A DNA stretch of 47,081 nucleotides from assembly GCA_026646335.1 (NCBI GenBank), contig JAPKFY010000025.1, positions 1 to 47,081 of the forward strand. Direction: 5' to 3'. The position numbers were made by a program, and so were the translations under genes. Below the pieces are notes generated by a model. That model saw only the letters and a list, made by a program, of their open reading frames with translations. It was not told the origin of the DNA and ran no database searches. This document shows, piece after piece, positions 33,171 through 37,651 of this stretch. Numbering within the stretch: position 1 is the first letter of the stretch; each line of letters opens with the position of its first letter. Source of the stretch: Aequorivita sp. (GTDB taxonomy: Bacteria > Bacteroidota > Bacteroidia > Flavobacteriales > Flavobacteriaceae).

Positions 33171-34325
33171 ATGAACTACTTCTCCACCAGCTTCACCCTC
33201 GGCATCCTAGGCGGCGGGCAGTTGGGCAAAATGATGCTTTACGAAACCCGCAAATGGGACATCCGCACCAGCGTTTTAGATCCAAGCGCCGAAGCCCCTT
33301 GCCGTATCGCCGCAGACCATTTTCAGCAAGGCGACCTGATGGATTTTGAAACCGTTTATAACTTCGGAAAAAAGGTGGATGTGCTTACTTTTGAAATTGA
33401 AGGCGTGAACATAGAAGCCTTGGAAAGACTTGAAAATGAAGGCGTGAAGGTTTATCCAAGCGCAGGAACTTTAAGGAATATTCAAGATAAGGGCATACAG
33501 AAGCAGTTTTACAAGGAACACCAAATCCCCACTTCGCCCTTTAAGGTTTACAAAGACAAAAACGATTTAAACGAAGCCATAGTCCGCAAGGAATTGCATT
33601 TCCCTTTTGTATGGAAAAGCTGCACTGGCGGGTACGACGGCAAAGGCGTAAGCATCATCCGCGAAGCCGAAGACGTAATTCCACTTTCAGAAGGCGCTTG
33701 CATAGCAGAAAAACTGATTCCCTTTAAAAATGAGTTGGCGGTAATAGTAGCCCGCAATCCTTCTGGGGAAGTGAAAACCTATCCCGTGGTAGAAATGGAA
33801 TTCCACCCCGAAGCCAACCAAGTAGAATACGTAATCTGCCCCGCCAGAATAGACGAAACTGTTGCCAACAAAGCAAGAGCCGTAGCCACCAAAGTTTCGG
33901 AAGCGTTTAAGCACGTAGGTCTTTTGGCGGTAGAAATGTTCCAAACCGAAGACGATGAAATACTGGTTAACGAAGTTGCACCACGCCCCCACAACAGCGG
34001 TCATTACAGCATTGAAGCCAGCTACACCAACCAGTTTGAACAACAAATAAGAGCCATATTAAACTTACCTTTGGGCAATACAGATAGTAAAGTAGGCGGT
34101 ATAATGGTTAATTTAGTAGGCGCTGAAGGCCACACCGGCCAGGTAGTCTATAAAAACATAGAAAAAATATTGGCGATGGAAGGCGTAACGCCCCACATCT
34201 ACGGCAAAAAAGAAACCCGCCCCTTCAGAAAGATGGGCCATGTAACCATAGTAAACAAAGACCTCAGCAAAGCGCGAAAAATTGCGGAGGAGGTTAAGAA
34301 AACAATAGAAGTAATTAGTAAATGA
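33171..34325 (+). CDS. purK: N5-carboxyaminoimidazole ribonucleotide synthase
   Basis: 384 residues. The N-terminal dinucleotide-like motif GILGGGQLGKMM is at the start. The ATP-grasp domain runs from about residue 100, with KSCTGGYDGKGVSII and NEVAPRPHNSGHY. PurK makes N5-CAIR from AIR, ATP and bicarbonate in purine synthesis. purE follows after the inverted-repeat element. The leader is a heptamer array. Confidence 0.95.
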   Translation: MNYFSTSFTLGILGGGQLGKMMLYETRKWDIRTSVLDPSAEAPCRIAADHFQQGDLMDFETVYNFGKKVDVLTFEIEGVNIEALERLENEGVKVYPSAGTLRNIQDKGIQKQFYKEHQIPTSPFKVYKDKNDLNEAIVRKELHFPFVWKSCTGGYDGKGVSIIREAEDVIPLSEGACIAEKLIPFKNELAVIVARNPSGEVKTYPVVEMEFHPEANQVEYVICPARIDETVANKARAVATKVSEAFKHVGLLAVEMFQTEDDEILVNEVAPRPHNSGHYSIEASYTNQFEQQIRAILNLPLGNTDSKVGGIMVNLVGAEGHTGQVVYKNIEKILAMEGVTPHIYGKKETRPFRKMGHVTIVNKDLSKARKIAEEVKKTIEVISK

Positions 34326-34355
34326 TAGTTTTTGTATCTTTCATAAAAGTTTTGA

Positions 34356-34532
34356 AATGAGACACTATTAGAAAAAAAAAGTTTTAAAAAGGCCATTGAA
34401 TCCTTATCTGATGAGCAACTTGATGAAGCACTCTACCTAATTGAAAAGGTTAAAAGTCAAGACGAAAAACGTAAAGAGTATGTAAAGGATTTGCTCAAAA
34501 AAGAGAAGAATCTTTTTGTTAGACTAAGTTGA
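34356..34532 (+). pseudogene. Startless reading frame, probable gene remnant
   Basis: 58 codons open from a TGA to a TGA. The sequence is strongly charged and helical (FKKAIESLSDEQLDEALYLI, then KEYVKDLLKKEK). No ATG, GTG or TTG lies in this frame; an ATG at 34357 is in another frame and meets a stop at once. Looks like a decayed small helical protein. Low certainty. Confidence 0.35.
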
Positions 34533-34546
34533 GAATCAATATCACG

Positions 34547-34947
34547 ATGTCCGGTCGAGCGCAGTCGAGACCTCATTTTGAAATCAAAGCTTTATTCTGA
34601 AATGAAATCATATTACATTTACAAATTGGAATGTTAAGCCGGTTTACTTTACACAGGATTCACTAACAATATTTCAAGAAGACTTGAAGAGCATCAACTA
34701 GGAAGAAACAAATCTTGTTTCACTTACAAACGAAGACCTTTGGAGTTAATATTCCATCAAGAATTCAATGATGTGGAGCAAGCAATATATTTTGAGAAGA
34801 AAATAAAAAAATGGAGTGCGCAAAAAAAGAAAGCTTTGGCTAATGAGAATTTTGAAATGCTTCAAATACTCGCAGAATGTAGAAATATGACACATTCAAA
34901 ATATAAGCCAACTGCCGAGGAGGTCTCGACTGCGCTCGACCTGACAT
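34547..34947 (+). mobile_element. Putative GIY-YIG inverted-repeat element between purK and purE
   Basis: The element is bounded by 28-bp inverted ends: left 34547-34574, right 34920-34947, 27 of 28 bases matching. Each end holds two copies of GTCGAG spaced by CGCA. Between them lies a single frame of the GIY-YIG nuclease fold. Its last codons run into the right end. A target-site duplication was not recognised. The layout resembles a small transposon or a REP-type element with its own nuclease. A related remnant lies at 35515-35622. Confidence 0.6.
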
Positions 34948-34949
34948 AG
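34602..34949 (+). pseudogene. GIY-YIG nuclease frame with an in-frame stop
   Basis: About 115 codons. The start MKSYYIYKLEC is followed by a TAA at 34635 in place of a codon that would naturally be AAA. After it, AGLLYTGFTNNISRRLEEH carries the second half of the GIY-YIG motif and the Arg; YFEKKIKKW carries the conserved Glu. The tail EVSTALDLT is encoded by the right inverted repeat and the stop follows it. One nonsense change breaks an otherwise full-length gene; a start further in (34740, TTG) would lose the catalytic motif. Family known: UvrC-like and short YhbQ-like nucleases. Confidence 0.7.
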
Positions 34950-34960
34950 AACTAGAAAAT

Positions 34961-35452
34961 ATGAAAAAAGTAGCCATAATAATGGGAAGCACCAGCGACC
35001 TGCCAGTAATGCAGGAAGCCGTAGATATTCTAAAGGAATTCAACATTGAAGTGGAAGTGGATATCGTTTCCGCCCACCGCACCCCCGATAAACTTTTTGA
35101 TTACGGCAAGAATGCCCACACCCGTGGCATTTCGGTAATCATAGCCGGAGCAGGCGGCGCGGCACACCTTCCAGGGATGATTGCTTCCCTGTCGCCATTG
35201 CCAGTTATTGGCGTGCCCGTAAAATCCAGCAATTCTATTGATGGCTGGGACAGCATCCTTTCCATCCTCCAAATGCCCGGCGGGGTGCCCGTTGCCACGG
35301 TTGCATTGAATGGCGCCAAAAACGCTGGCATCTTGGCCGCACAAATTATCGGCTCTTCCGATAAAGCTGTTTTGGACAGGATTATTGCTTATAAAGAAAG
35401 CCTTAAAACAAAGGTTGAAGAAGGCGCCAAGAAAGTTCGCAGTAATAAGTAG
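34961..35452 (+). CDS. purE: N5-carboxyaminoimidazole ribonucleotide mutase
   Basis: 163 residues with GSTSDLPVMQEAV at the start, then VSAHRTPD and GAGGAAHLPGMIA, all PurE landmarks. It converts N5-CAIR to CAIR after PurK. The ATG is 13 bases after the element's right end. The gene's stop codon lies inside the start of a heptamer array. Confidence 0.95.
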   Translation: MKKVAIIMGSTSDLPVMQEAVDILKEFNIEVEVDIVSAHRTPDKLFDYGKNAHTRGISVIIAGAGGAAHLPGMIASLSPLPVIGVPVKSSNSIDGWDSILSILQMPGGVPVATVALNGAKNAGILAAQIIGSSDKAVLDRIIAYKESLKTKVEEGAKKVRSNK

Positions 35453-35514: not shown

Positions 35515-35622
35515 ATGTCCCCTCGAATAGCCCGTACTGAGCGCAGTCAAAGTACAGCCGAGAGGTCCTTATTAAGCAAGATTACCAAAAAGAAGTAGGT
35601 CTCGACTGCGCTCGACCGGACA
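35515..35622 (+). repeat. Remnant or non-autonomous copy of the GIY-YIG element ends
   Basis: The right end (35597-35622, AGGTCTCGACTGCGCTCGACCGGACA) matches the right end at 34920. The left part begins ATGTCC but continues differently; it holds GTACTGAGCGCAGTCAAAGTAC (35534-35555), a related palindromic word, and CCTCG...CGAGAGG around it. No nuclease frame. It ends 7 bases before the M3 peptidase start. Confidence 0.6.
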
Positions 35623-35629
35623 AAGTACT

Positions 35630-37651
35630 ATGAAAAATCCCTTATTACAACCCTACAACACCGCCCCCTTTTCCAAAATAAAAAACGCACACTTCCTCCC
35701 AGCAACCAGCATATTGATTGAGGAAACAAAGGAAGAAATAGATACAATCACATCAAATACTGATGTGCCCACTTTTAAAAATACGGTAGAAGCATTAGAA
35801 AACACCGGAGAGAGATTAGACCGGGCAACGAGTATTTTCTTCAACCTGAACAGCGCTGAAACAAACGATGAAATCCAGAAAATAGCGCAGAAAATCTCAC
35901 CTATGCTTACGGAATTTAGCAACGATATGTTGCTAAATGAAGCGTTGTTTAAAAGAATAAAAACGGTTTATAGCCAAAAGGACTCTTTAAGCCTTTCCGA
36001 AGAACAGCAGATGCTGCTCGACAAAAAATACAAAGCCTTTTCAAGAAACGGCGCCAACCTTTCCGAAGAAAAGAAAACGAAACTGCGCAAAATTGACACG
36101 GAACTTTCTAAACTGAACCTCACTTTCGGCGAAAACGTCTTGGCGGAAACCAACAAGTTTGAACTTCAAATTTCAGATAAAAAAGACCTTTCCGGCCTAC
36201 CCGAAGGCGTAATTGAAGCTGCAGCCCAAACTGCTGAAGAAAAGGGCAAAACTGGCTGGATTTTTACATTGGATTACCCAAGCTATGTTCCGTTTTTAAC
36301 ATACGCAGACAACCGAGAACTTCGCAAAAAGTTGGCGATTGAATTTGGTGCCCGCTGTTTTCACAATGATGCATTGAACAACCAACAAAATGTTTTGCAG
36401 ATTGCAATCCTTCGCCACAAACGAGCCAAACTGTTGGGCTATAAAAGTCACGCCCATTTCGTTCTTGAAGAACGCATGGCCGAAACCCCTGAAAAAGTAA
36501 AAGCATTTTTAAACGAACTTCTCGAAAAAGCAAAACCTGCCGCCCAAAAAGAGTTTGAAGAATTAACTGCTTTCGCAAAAAAACTGGACGGCATTCATCA
36601 TTTGGAAAAATGGGATGGCGCTTATTATTCTGAAAAACTAAAACAGAAACTTTTCAATCTAGACGATGAAAAACTGAAGCCATACTTTGAATTAAAGAAT
36701 GTAATCAAAGGGGTTTTCACAGTTGCCGAAAAACTCTACGGACTTCATTTTAAGGAAGTGCAAAACATCGATAAATACCACGCAGACGTAAAAACATACG
36801 AAGTAAAAGACGACGAAGGCGAATTGGTTGCCATCTTTTACGCAGATTTCCACCCGCGTGCAGGAAAGCAAAATGGCGCGTGGATGACTTCCTATAAACC
36901 CCAACAAATAAAGGGCGGAAAAAATGATAGGCCGCATATTTCCATAGTTTGCAATTTCACGAAGCCTACGGCAAGCAAGCCTTCTCTTCTAACTTTTAAT
37001 GAAGTGACAACACTCTTCCACGAATTTGGTCACGCCCTGCACGGAATGTTGGCAAACACAACCTACCCTAGCCTCTCTGGCACCAGTGTGTATTGGGATT
37101 TTGTGGAATTGCCAAGTCAGATTTTGGAGAATTGGTGTTACGAAAAAGAAACCTTAGAGCTTTTCGCCACACATTACAAAACTGGGGAAATAATCCCGAT
37201 GGAATACGTTGAAAAAATAAAGGAATCTGCTACATTTCTTGAAGGAATGGCAACCCTGCGCCAGTTGAGCTTTGGAATGTTGGACATGGCTTGGCACGGC
37301 CAAGACCCTTCCAAGATCAAGGATGTAAAAGCCTTTGAAGTCGCAGCTTTTGATGATACCCAACTGTATCCAGACGTGAAAGAAAACTGTATGAGCACTT
37401 CCTTTTCGCATATTTTCCAAGGCAGATATTCCGCAGGATATTACAGTTATAAATGGGCCGAAGTGCTGGATGCGGATGCTTTTGCTCTGTTTAAACAGGA
37501 AGGCATTTTCAACAAAAAAGTAGCGGATCGCTTCAAAGGTTTTGTGCTTTCGCAAGGGGGAACCGTGGACCCTATGGAACTCTACATAAAATTCCGCGGA
37601 CAAAAACCAGACCCAGAAGCGCTTTTAAAACGTGCGGGACTGCTCCAATAA
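35630..37651 (+). CDS. M3-family metallopeptidase (oligopeptidase A / Dcp-like)
   Basis: 673 residues, normal for the M3 family. The zinc site TLFHEFGHALHGML (HExxH) is near residue 465, with the third ligand Glu about 25 residues later. No signal peptide, so cytoplasmic; it degrades short peptides. It is expected to be co-expressed with purE only if transcripts read through the element remnant in the gap. Confidence 0.9.
   Translation: MKNPLLQPYNTAPFSKIKNAHFLPATSILIEETKEEIDTITSNTDVPTFKNTVEALENTGERLDRATSIFFNLNSAETNDEIQKIAQKISPMLTEFSNDMLLNEALFKRIKTVYSQKDSLSLSEEQQMLLDKKYKAFSRNGANLSEEKKTKLRKIDTELSKLNLTFGENVLAETNKFELQISDKKDLSGLPEGVIEAAAQTAEEKGKTGWIFTLDYPSYVPFLTYADNRELRKKLAIEFGARCFHNDALNNQQNVLQIAILRHKRAKLLGYKSHAHFVLEERMAETPEKVKAFLNELLEKAKPAAQKEFEELTAFAKKLDGIHHLEKWDGAYYSEKLKQKLFNLDDEKLKPYFELKNVIKGVFTVAEKLYGLHFKEVQNIDKYHADVKTYEVKDDEGELVAIFYADFHPRAGKQNGAWMTSYKPQQIKGGKNDRPHISIVCNFTKPTASKPSLLTFNEVTTLFHEFGHALHGMLANTTYPSLSGTSVYWDFVELPSQILENWCYEKETLELFATHYKTGEIIPMEYVEKIKESATFLEGMATLRQLSFGMLDMAWHGQDPSKIKDVKAFEVAAFDDTQLYPDVKENCMSTSFSHIFQGRYSAGYYSYKWAEVLDADAFALFKQEGIFNKKVADRFKGFVLSQGGTVDPMELYIKFRGQKPDPEALLKRAGLLQ

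Follow-up and report, generated by a model that had tools for sequence, protein, structure and literature searches.

CGTC-tagged REPs have been described as a superfamily without a dedicated transposase (Di Nocera 2013, PMC3733652). In many of these REPs the CGTC tag is altered to TGTC or CCTC, and head-to-head dimers predominate. The superfamily includes dRS3 of Neisseria and the RPE repeats of Rickettsia, Bacteroidetes and G. forsetii are named as well, and the text contains no word beginning with 'GIY'. In the RAYT/TnpA-REP systems (REPtrons, REPINs) the enzyme gene is bracketed by its own class of tagged palindromic hairpins, which carry a bulge in some groups (PMC8266576, PMC6006769). Small COG2827 genes of unknown role, which we take to be the same as the small UPF0213-type GIY-YIG proteins, are widespread in alphaproteobacteria, and in Caulobacter one such gene carries an SOS box; the sections of that report that bear on the matter mention no association with repeats (PMC1839093). 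GIY-YIG homing endonucleases share the catalytic domain and the selfish position of the gene; the bracket of hairpins sets the present genes apart from them. Here we propose small GIY-YIG nucleases as a partner enzyme of CGTC REPs; binding, cleavage and mode of spread are inferred, and there is no biochemical evidence. No link between GIY-YIG proteins and REPs was found in the open-access literature that we searched, and earlier work may exist.

The window is the whole stretch of 47,081 nucleotides analysed from Aequorivita sp. (contig JAPKFY010000025.1). Two arms at positions 34547-34574 (plus strand) and 34920-34947 (minus strand), 345 nt apart, are complementary in inverted orientation at 27 of 28 nt (96%). 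They lie between purK (33171-34325, plus strand), an open reading frame whose name comes from the sequence-only reading with no family search behind it, and purE (34961-35452, plus strand), named in the same reading, relatives of which were found in 27 of 28 Aequorivita genomes, the window genome included. The left arm is a TGTC-tagged hairpin unit, recognised as an inverted repeat and present as the same unit at other GIY-YIG loci; it consists of TGTC (34548-34551), the spacer C, the foot GGTC (34553-34556), GA, the loop GCGCAG, TC, a GA bulge and the foot GACC (34569-34572). Between the arms lies a small GIY-YIG nuclease frame of UPF0213 type (34602-34949, plus strand), supported by relatives and by a PF01541 profile match (E 4.5e-16, with the stop written as X). 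The inverted copy of the unit at the right end also codes the C-terminal tail of this frame, EVSTALDLT, as it does in several relatives. At codon 12 (bases 34635-34637) the window frame is interrupted by an in-frame TAA; five relatives carry a sense codon there, and none of the five congener versions with 88-91% identity to the frame has the stop. The TAA thus leaves the window copy broken or, at most, restarting downstream.

The 16-nt core TCGAGCGCAGTCGAGA matched the window three times, each time exactly, in a search tolerating three mismatches, compared with a mean of 0.05 matches in 100 shuffles. The 3.05 Mb draft genome holds 18 copies (11 exact and 7 with one mismatch), copies are present in 27 of 28 Aequorivita genomes, and the window repeat class meets the dispersed multicopy criterion of the CGTC/TGTC REP superfamily. 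Like the members of that superfamily, which have an unpaired CGTC, TGTC or CCTC tag at the foot of the palindrome, the window element has TGTC at both ends. However, the window class does not meet the description of an 8-9 bp stem that almost invariably starts with A-T pairs and a loop of 4-5; it has an N4 foot, a GA bulge and a six-base loop, the Bacteroidota classes A, B and P5 all having a 4-bp covarying foot with a GA bulge instead of the 8-9 bp stem. It also differs from the RAYT systems, since RAYT is a Y1 HUH transposase with a GTAG or GTGG tag, whereas the window ends enclose only a GIY-YIG frame and the tag here is TGTC/CGTC.

Downstream of purE, between it and a 673-aa open reading frame (35630-37651), lies an inverted two-unit dimer that is REPIN-like (35516-35622, no strand assigned). 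Similar dimers occur elsewhere in the window genome and before purE in other Aequorivita. The loop of the left unit nests a second GA-loop hairpin, and this nested form was seen again near two other loci (L021, L022). On the purK side, positions 34326-34546 resemble the start of a longer purK-purE insert in genome G021 and, less closely, in G006. The purK-purE gap varies in length within the genus, the shortest being 10 bp and the longest over 1200 bp, and it may be an insertion hot spot, which is no more than a possibility.

The claims of the sequence-only reading held in their description of this locus and were amended in part. The inverted 27/28 ends around a GIY-YIG frame in purK-purE, the enclosure of that frame alone (no other frame was found between the ends) and the coding of its tail by the right end were all confirmed; the frame itself had to be amended for the stop at codon 12. 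The family had been inferred from one element and one remnant; the remnant is the two-unit dimer downstream of purE, and many further copies are now known around GIY-YIG genes. The unit is the repeat class and not the exact 28-bp end. The suggestion of REP-type palindromes paired with their own enzyme, GIY-YIG taking the place of RAYT, is supported by the wider data, while that of a small transposon-like unit remains unproven, with neither target duplication nor active movement seen.

Comparing copies side by side, we found that the unit reads TGTC, a single base (A in most copies), a foot of four bases, GA and a five- or six-base loop, after which come TC, an unpaired GA and the foot's complement. 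A search pattern that fixed only TGTC...GA...TCGA and left the feet free yielded 394 units in 135 distinct GIY-YIG loci, and 295 of these have feet that are fully Watson-Crick paired over all four pairs. Among distinct stems, 33 of 106 were fully paired, against a mean of 1.8 and a maximum of 7 in 2000 permutations. At foot positions 1 and 2 all four bases occur and pairing is mostly kept, and a foot that varies yet stays paired points to a folded strand or cruciform and not to a fixed duplex site. The six-base loops are nearly fixed as GCG-N-AG (each fixed base in 308-316 of 319), N being variable. The C-GNA-G triloop of DNA is unusually stable, and the GCG-N-AG loop resembles it. The loop and foot counts come from a 139-locus set that includes four duplicates, and the class labels rest on one search pattern. 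In class C the foot and GA bulge are the same but the inner stem is longer, and the class E hairpin is imperfect. Taken singly, units of classes A, B, P5 and E had folding energies no better than those of shuffles (z -0.06 to 0.76), which lends no support to a special stability of the Bacteroidota classes. Adjacent pairs of units near the genes were inverted in 83 of 122 cases (47 head-in and 36 head-out, the latter with a median gap of 32 nt) and on the same strand in 39, and thus were not mostly head-out. As a separate observation, contig C1 of genome G005, a genome without a close class A gene, holds clusters of class A cores that lie mostly on one strand (627057-629770, 2281087-2285574, 3028786-3029608, 3169508-3170109 and 3281580-3282013).

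Small GIY-YIG genes are bracketed by these tagged hairpins. With genes chosen only by the similarity of their proteins, an inverted repeat with a score of at least 16 spanned the gene in 47 of 79 named loci, compared with 5 of 822 other open reading frames, and the same score was reached in 2 of 1722 shifted windows. The 79 loci are the best 80 of at least 541 confirmed relatives, minus one at a contig edge; the main sets take one genome per species, and the loci are related to one another. A further set shares four loci with the first. There, a score of at least 12 was reached in 40 of 59 loci against 4 of 118 shifted controls, one of which scored 300; 59 of 64 loci were tested, three being too short and two near contig ends. 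With duplicates removed (135 distinct loci), there were 346 units in the 175 kb within 500 bp of the gene and 48 in 1,367 kb elsewhere in the same loci, a 56-fold higher density near the gene. Units flank the gene on both sides in 79 loci, and in 64 of these the nearest ones had TGTC outward on either side; this count, the adjacent-pair set and the tree described below still include one duplicate pair (L050/L079). No unit with at least three of four foot pairs was present within 500 bp in 24 of 136 loci, some of which carry class C or E repeats that the search pattern misses. The loci are mostly from Flavobacteriaceae, and were also found in Chryseobacterium, Dyadobacter, Algoriphagus, a Chitinophaga bin and bins labelled Nitrospinota and Nitrospirae. 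As a control, flanks were also exchanged between loci, and 74 of 177 swapped pairs scored at least 12; since repeat classes are shared across genomes, this control was weak and was set aside. An Rfam search of 11 loci returned only a tmRNA at gathering scores.

In the plasmid collection, hairpins with a CGTC, TGTC or CCTC tag were found on both sides of the gene, within 300 bp, in 10 of 18 loci compared with 13 of 486 control positions. The ten loci are from Sinorhizobium meliloti, Sinorhizobium K101, Shinella, Rhizobium, Neorhizobium, Azospirillum, Neisseria gonorrhoeae, Aeromonas, Novosphingobium and Sphingobium, and several of the proteobacterial units fit the 8-9 bp stem type of CGTC REPs. 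By the strict test, two of the remaining loci had hairpins on one side only and six on neither. Among these six, the Planktothrix, Spirosoma and Methylobacterium loci show tagged imperfect palindromes by eye; in the Sphingomonas and two Cupriavidus loci no tagged palindromes were seen even by eye. The plain inverted-repeat test gave 11 of 18 against 5 of 198. The two-sided test was devised after the tag count had been seen; that count (29 of 92 near and 37 of 162 far) is uninformative because the 5-kb flanks hold REPs too. The set comprises 16 proteobacterial loci, one cyanobacterial locus and one from Spirosoma, taken from 58 match rows with near-copies skipped and the flanks unseen when choosing; some distinct organisms, such as Variovorax, Xanthomonas, Legionella and Radiobacillus, were skipped as well.

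Repeat class follows enzyme clade. When three class labels (foot ending in TC, foot ending in CT, five-base loop) were placed on a tree of 128 proteins, they required 8 changes, compared with a mean of 37.6 for shuffled labels, and none of 200 shuffles was as low. The labels cover 95 of the 128 proteins and the other 33 fell in no group; adding a mixed label, 'other', raised the requirement to 18 changes, for which there are no shuffles for comparison. The tree took 128 of 136 loci, eight being short or broken, with proteins cut at the first stop, and single placements are unsure because there are few columns and many open forks. The cleanest test comes from genomes with several enzymes; some Aequorivita genomes carry two to four with different repeat classes. 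The window genome has enzymes of class A (L001), the five-base class (L002) and class E (L004, with the ends GTCATTCCGACGNAGGAGGAATC). Genome G016, also Aequorivita, has a class A gene (L020), a gene of the class B clade (L043) with unit feet ending in GT and CT, a gene among class C repeats, which we take to be a class C gene, and, flanked by two class E repeats, a class E gene. Because clade and class match, a reading of the repeats as terminators or regulators was set aside.

The class E repeat, allowing one mismatch, was found in 4 of 28 genomes, all of them belonging to the five whose class E gene is intact (Fisher p 2.4e-4), and was absent from all 23 genomes that lack an intact one. The fifth, G017, has the intact gene and no class E repeat, and a sixth genome has a broken class E gene and no repeat. 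Class C copies averaged 9.75 in genomes with the gene and 1.25 in those without, many of them clustering at the gene itself; the class C gene was assigned in eight genomes by protein match, seven of them also on the tree and G016 by match alone. For class A the difference in copies with gene presence was not significant (16 against 11, p 0.08), in a test that counted the interrupted G000 copy and two G027 pieces as present, and class A copies persist in genomes without a class A gene.

The protein has the marks of the GIY-YIG domain, with Tyr, Tyr, Arg, His and Glu (Y7, Y17, R27, H31, E65) invariant in 39 relatives. Conserved GIY-YIG residues have catalytic roles. The nearest solved relatives by profile are 1zg2 and 1ywl, and the predicted fold (mean pLDDT 86.5) is nearest to UPF0213 and then, more weakly, to Slx1 (E 0.007-0.04, TM about 0.5). 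The protein thus shares its domain, and by prediction a similar fold, with UPF0213/COG2827 proteins and Slx1. Slx1 is a nuclease of branched DNA that carries a zinc-finger domain in addition and acts together with Slx4 (PMC7017083). NCBIfam gave no match, the window protein had no relative in the viral contigs scanned, and current records label such proteins 'GIY-YIG nuclease family protein', 'excinuclease ABC subunit C' or 'hypothetical protein'. The enzyme is under strong purifying selection: comparisons inside classes A, C and E gave dN/dS of 0.02-0.13 for 28 of the 30 pairs, and the other two pairs were saturated and gave no ratio.

The element is present at some orthologous sites and absent from others. 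Among 25 Aequorivita genomes in which the purK-purE gap could be measured, five had the gene with repeats, five had repeat dimers only and 15 lacked the core even with up to 2 of 14 mismatches allowed; two further loci were cut by contig ends and not counted. In G009 a GIY-YIG gene lies after purE instead. The ends are therefore not a fixed purK-purE leader, since the gap may hold gene and repeats, dimers only, or no core. The sequence-only reading had asked whether other copies of the ends lie around GIY-YIG genes, whether the ends are a fixed leader in relatives and whether empty-site orthologues exist; many copies do exist, the leader is excluded, and sites without the core are those of the 15 genomes. 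In Azospirillum lipoferum 4B a unit with repeat dimers on both sides lies between sufB and sufC, and is missing from three close relatives. Three aligned Sphingobium plasmid records carry the gene with its ends (the TYG73 frame has a one-base gap), another Sphingobium plasmid has a single fused hairpin, CGTC-stem-GACG, at the orthologous site, and yet another has no such hairpin there. The fused hairpin is what loss of the interior through paired ends would leave. No clear target-site duplication was seen in the Azospirillum and Sphingobium empty-site alignments, in which the flanks have partly diverged.

Sister small GIY-YIG genes, three in the window genome (L003, L005, L006) and others in congeners (L224-L252), follow tRNA genes. 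This linkage was found in 18 of 30 sister loci tested and in none of 80 REP-class loci; the three window-genome genes were the seeds, without which the count is 15 of 27, and two loci (L228, L236) were left out. The linked tRNAs are Val, Phe, Arg, Gln and Met, with the match starting 37-54 nt after the tRNA, and 139 nt after a tmRNA. A degenerate copy lies downstream in 15 of the 18 tRNA-linked loci, scoring above 100 shuffles, several only marginally. A tandem array of five GIY-YIG genes (L225, L243, L246, L248, L237) occupies G005:C1:1928167-1929976; the first four are 357-360 bp apart and the fifth follows 519 bp on, with a tRNA-Val before the first gene and tRNA-Gln-like genes between some.

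We consider it likely, at a probability of roughly 0.72, that the element is a repeat-enzyme pair, in which a GIY-YIG nuclease gene is bracketed by the hairpins that its product most probably recognises. The bracketing, the covarying foot, the agreement of clade and class, purifying selection and the presence or absence of the element at orthologous sites are observed; binding, cleavage and the route of spread are inferred. In this view, the hairpin would be marked by its (T/C)GTC tag, covarying foot, GA bulge and GNA-type loop, and the nuclease would recognise the hairpin of its own class as a folded single strand or cruciform, reading tag, bulge and loop. It would be structure-specific and cut beside the tag, and host repair would then spread or maintain hairpins in intergenic DNA, singly or as inverted pairs, and now and then the complete unit with its gene. 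The nuclease would thus serve the CGTC/TGTC REP superfamily as RAYT serves the GTAG REPs. GIY-YIG enzymes are hydrolytic, and direct strand transfer of the RAYT kind is therefore not expected. A bolder reading, which we regard as no more probable than its opposite, is that small GIY-YIG nucleases are the missing mobilising enzymes of CGTC/TGTC REPs in several phyla, and that sister clades took tRNA and tmRNA genes as their repeat, giving rise to units of tRNA and nuclease and to tandem arrays that include degenerate copies of the tRNA.

The strongest rival, which we consider unlikely, is of the homing type: the gene would use existing REPs as an insertion site without spreading them, the REPs being made otherwise. 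In its favour, class A copies persist without a matching gene, and the units often resemble a single gene set down between a pair of REPs or dimers. Against it, class E repeats are lacking in every genus genome without an intact class E gene, class C copies are far fewer without their gene, and no transposase is tied to these REPs in the sections of PMC3733652 that bear on it. Less probable still is a host-domesticated nuclease that treats REP hairpins for the host (cruciform removal, repair, gene regulation) with no present movement. The low dN/dS in three classes, the Slx1-like predicted fold and the SOS box of the Caulobacter gene (PMC1839093) would fit; the presence and absence between close relatives and the site inside the sufB-sufC operon speak against it. 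That gene and repeats merely gather in the same permissive gaps, with no functional tie, can all but be ruled out: long stretches without the repeat core in the Aequorivita purK-purE gap would suit such hot spots, but other reading frames in the same loci rarely have a bracket, and distinct repeat classes accompany the different enzyme clades of a single genome.

The repeat-enzyme pair offers a concrete, testable enzyme candidate for a large REP superfamily, including dRS3 of Neisseria and the palindromes of Rickettsia, that was reported without a transposase, and REPs would gain a second, chemically different class of partner enzyme. It suggests a possible function for small genes now labelled only generically or as hypothetical, and the matched enzymes and hairpins form a natural set of pairs for studying structure-specific DNA recognition. 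If true, bacteria would have a second, non-HUH route by which to acquire populations of short hairpin repeats.
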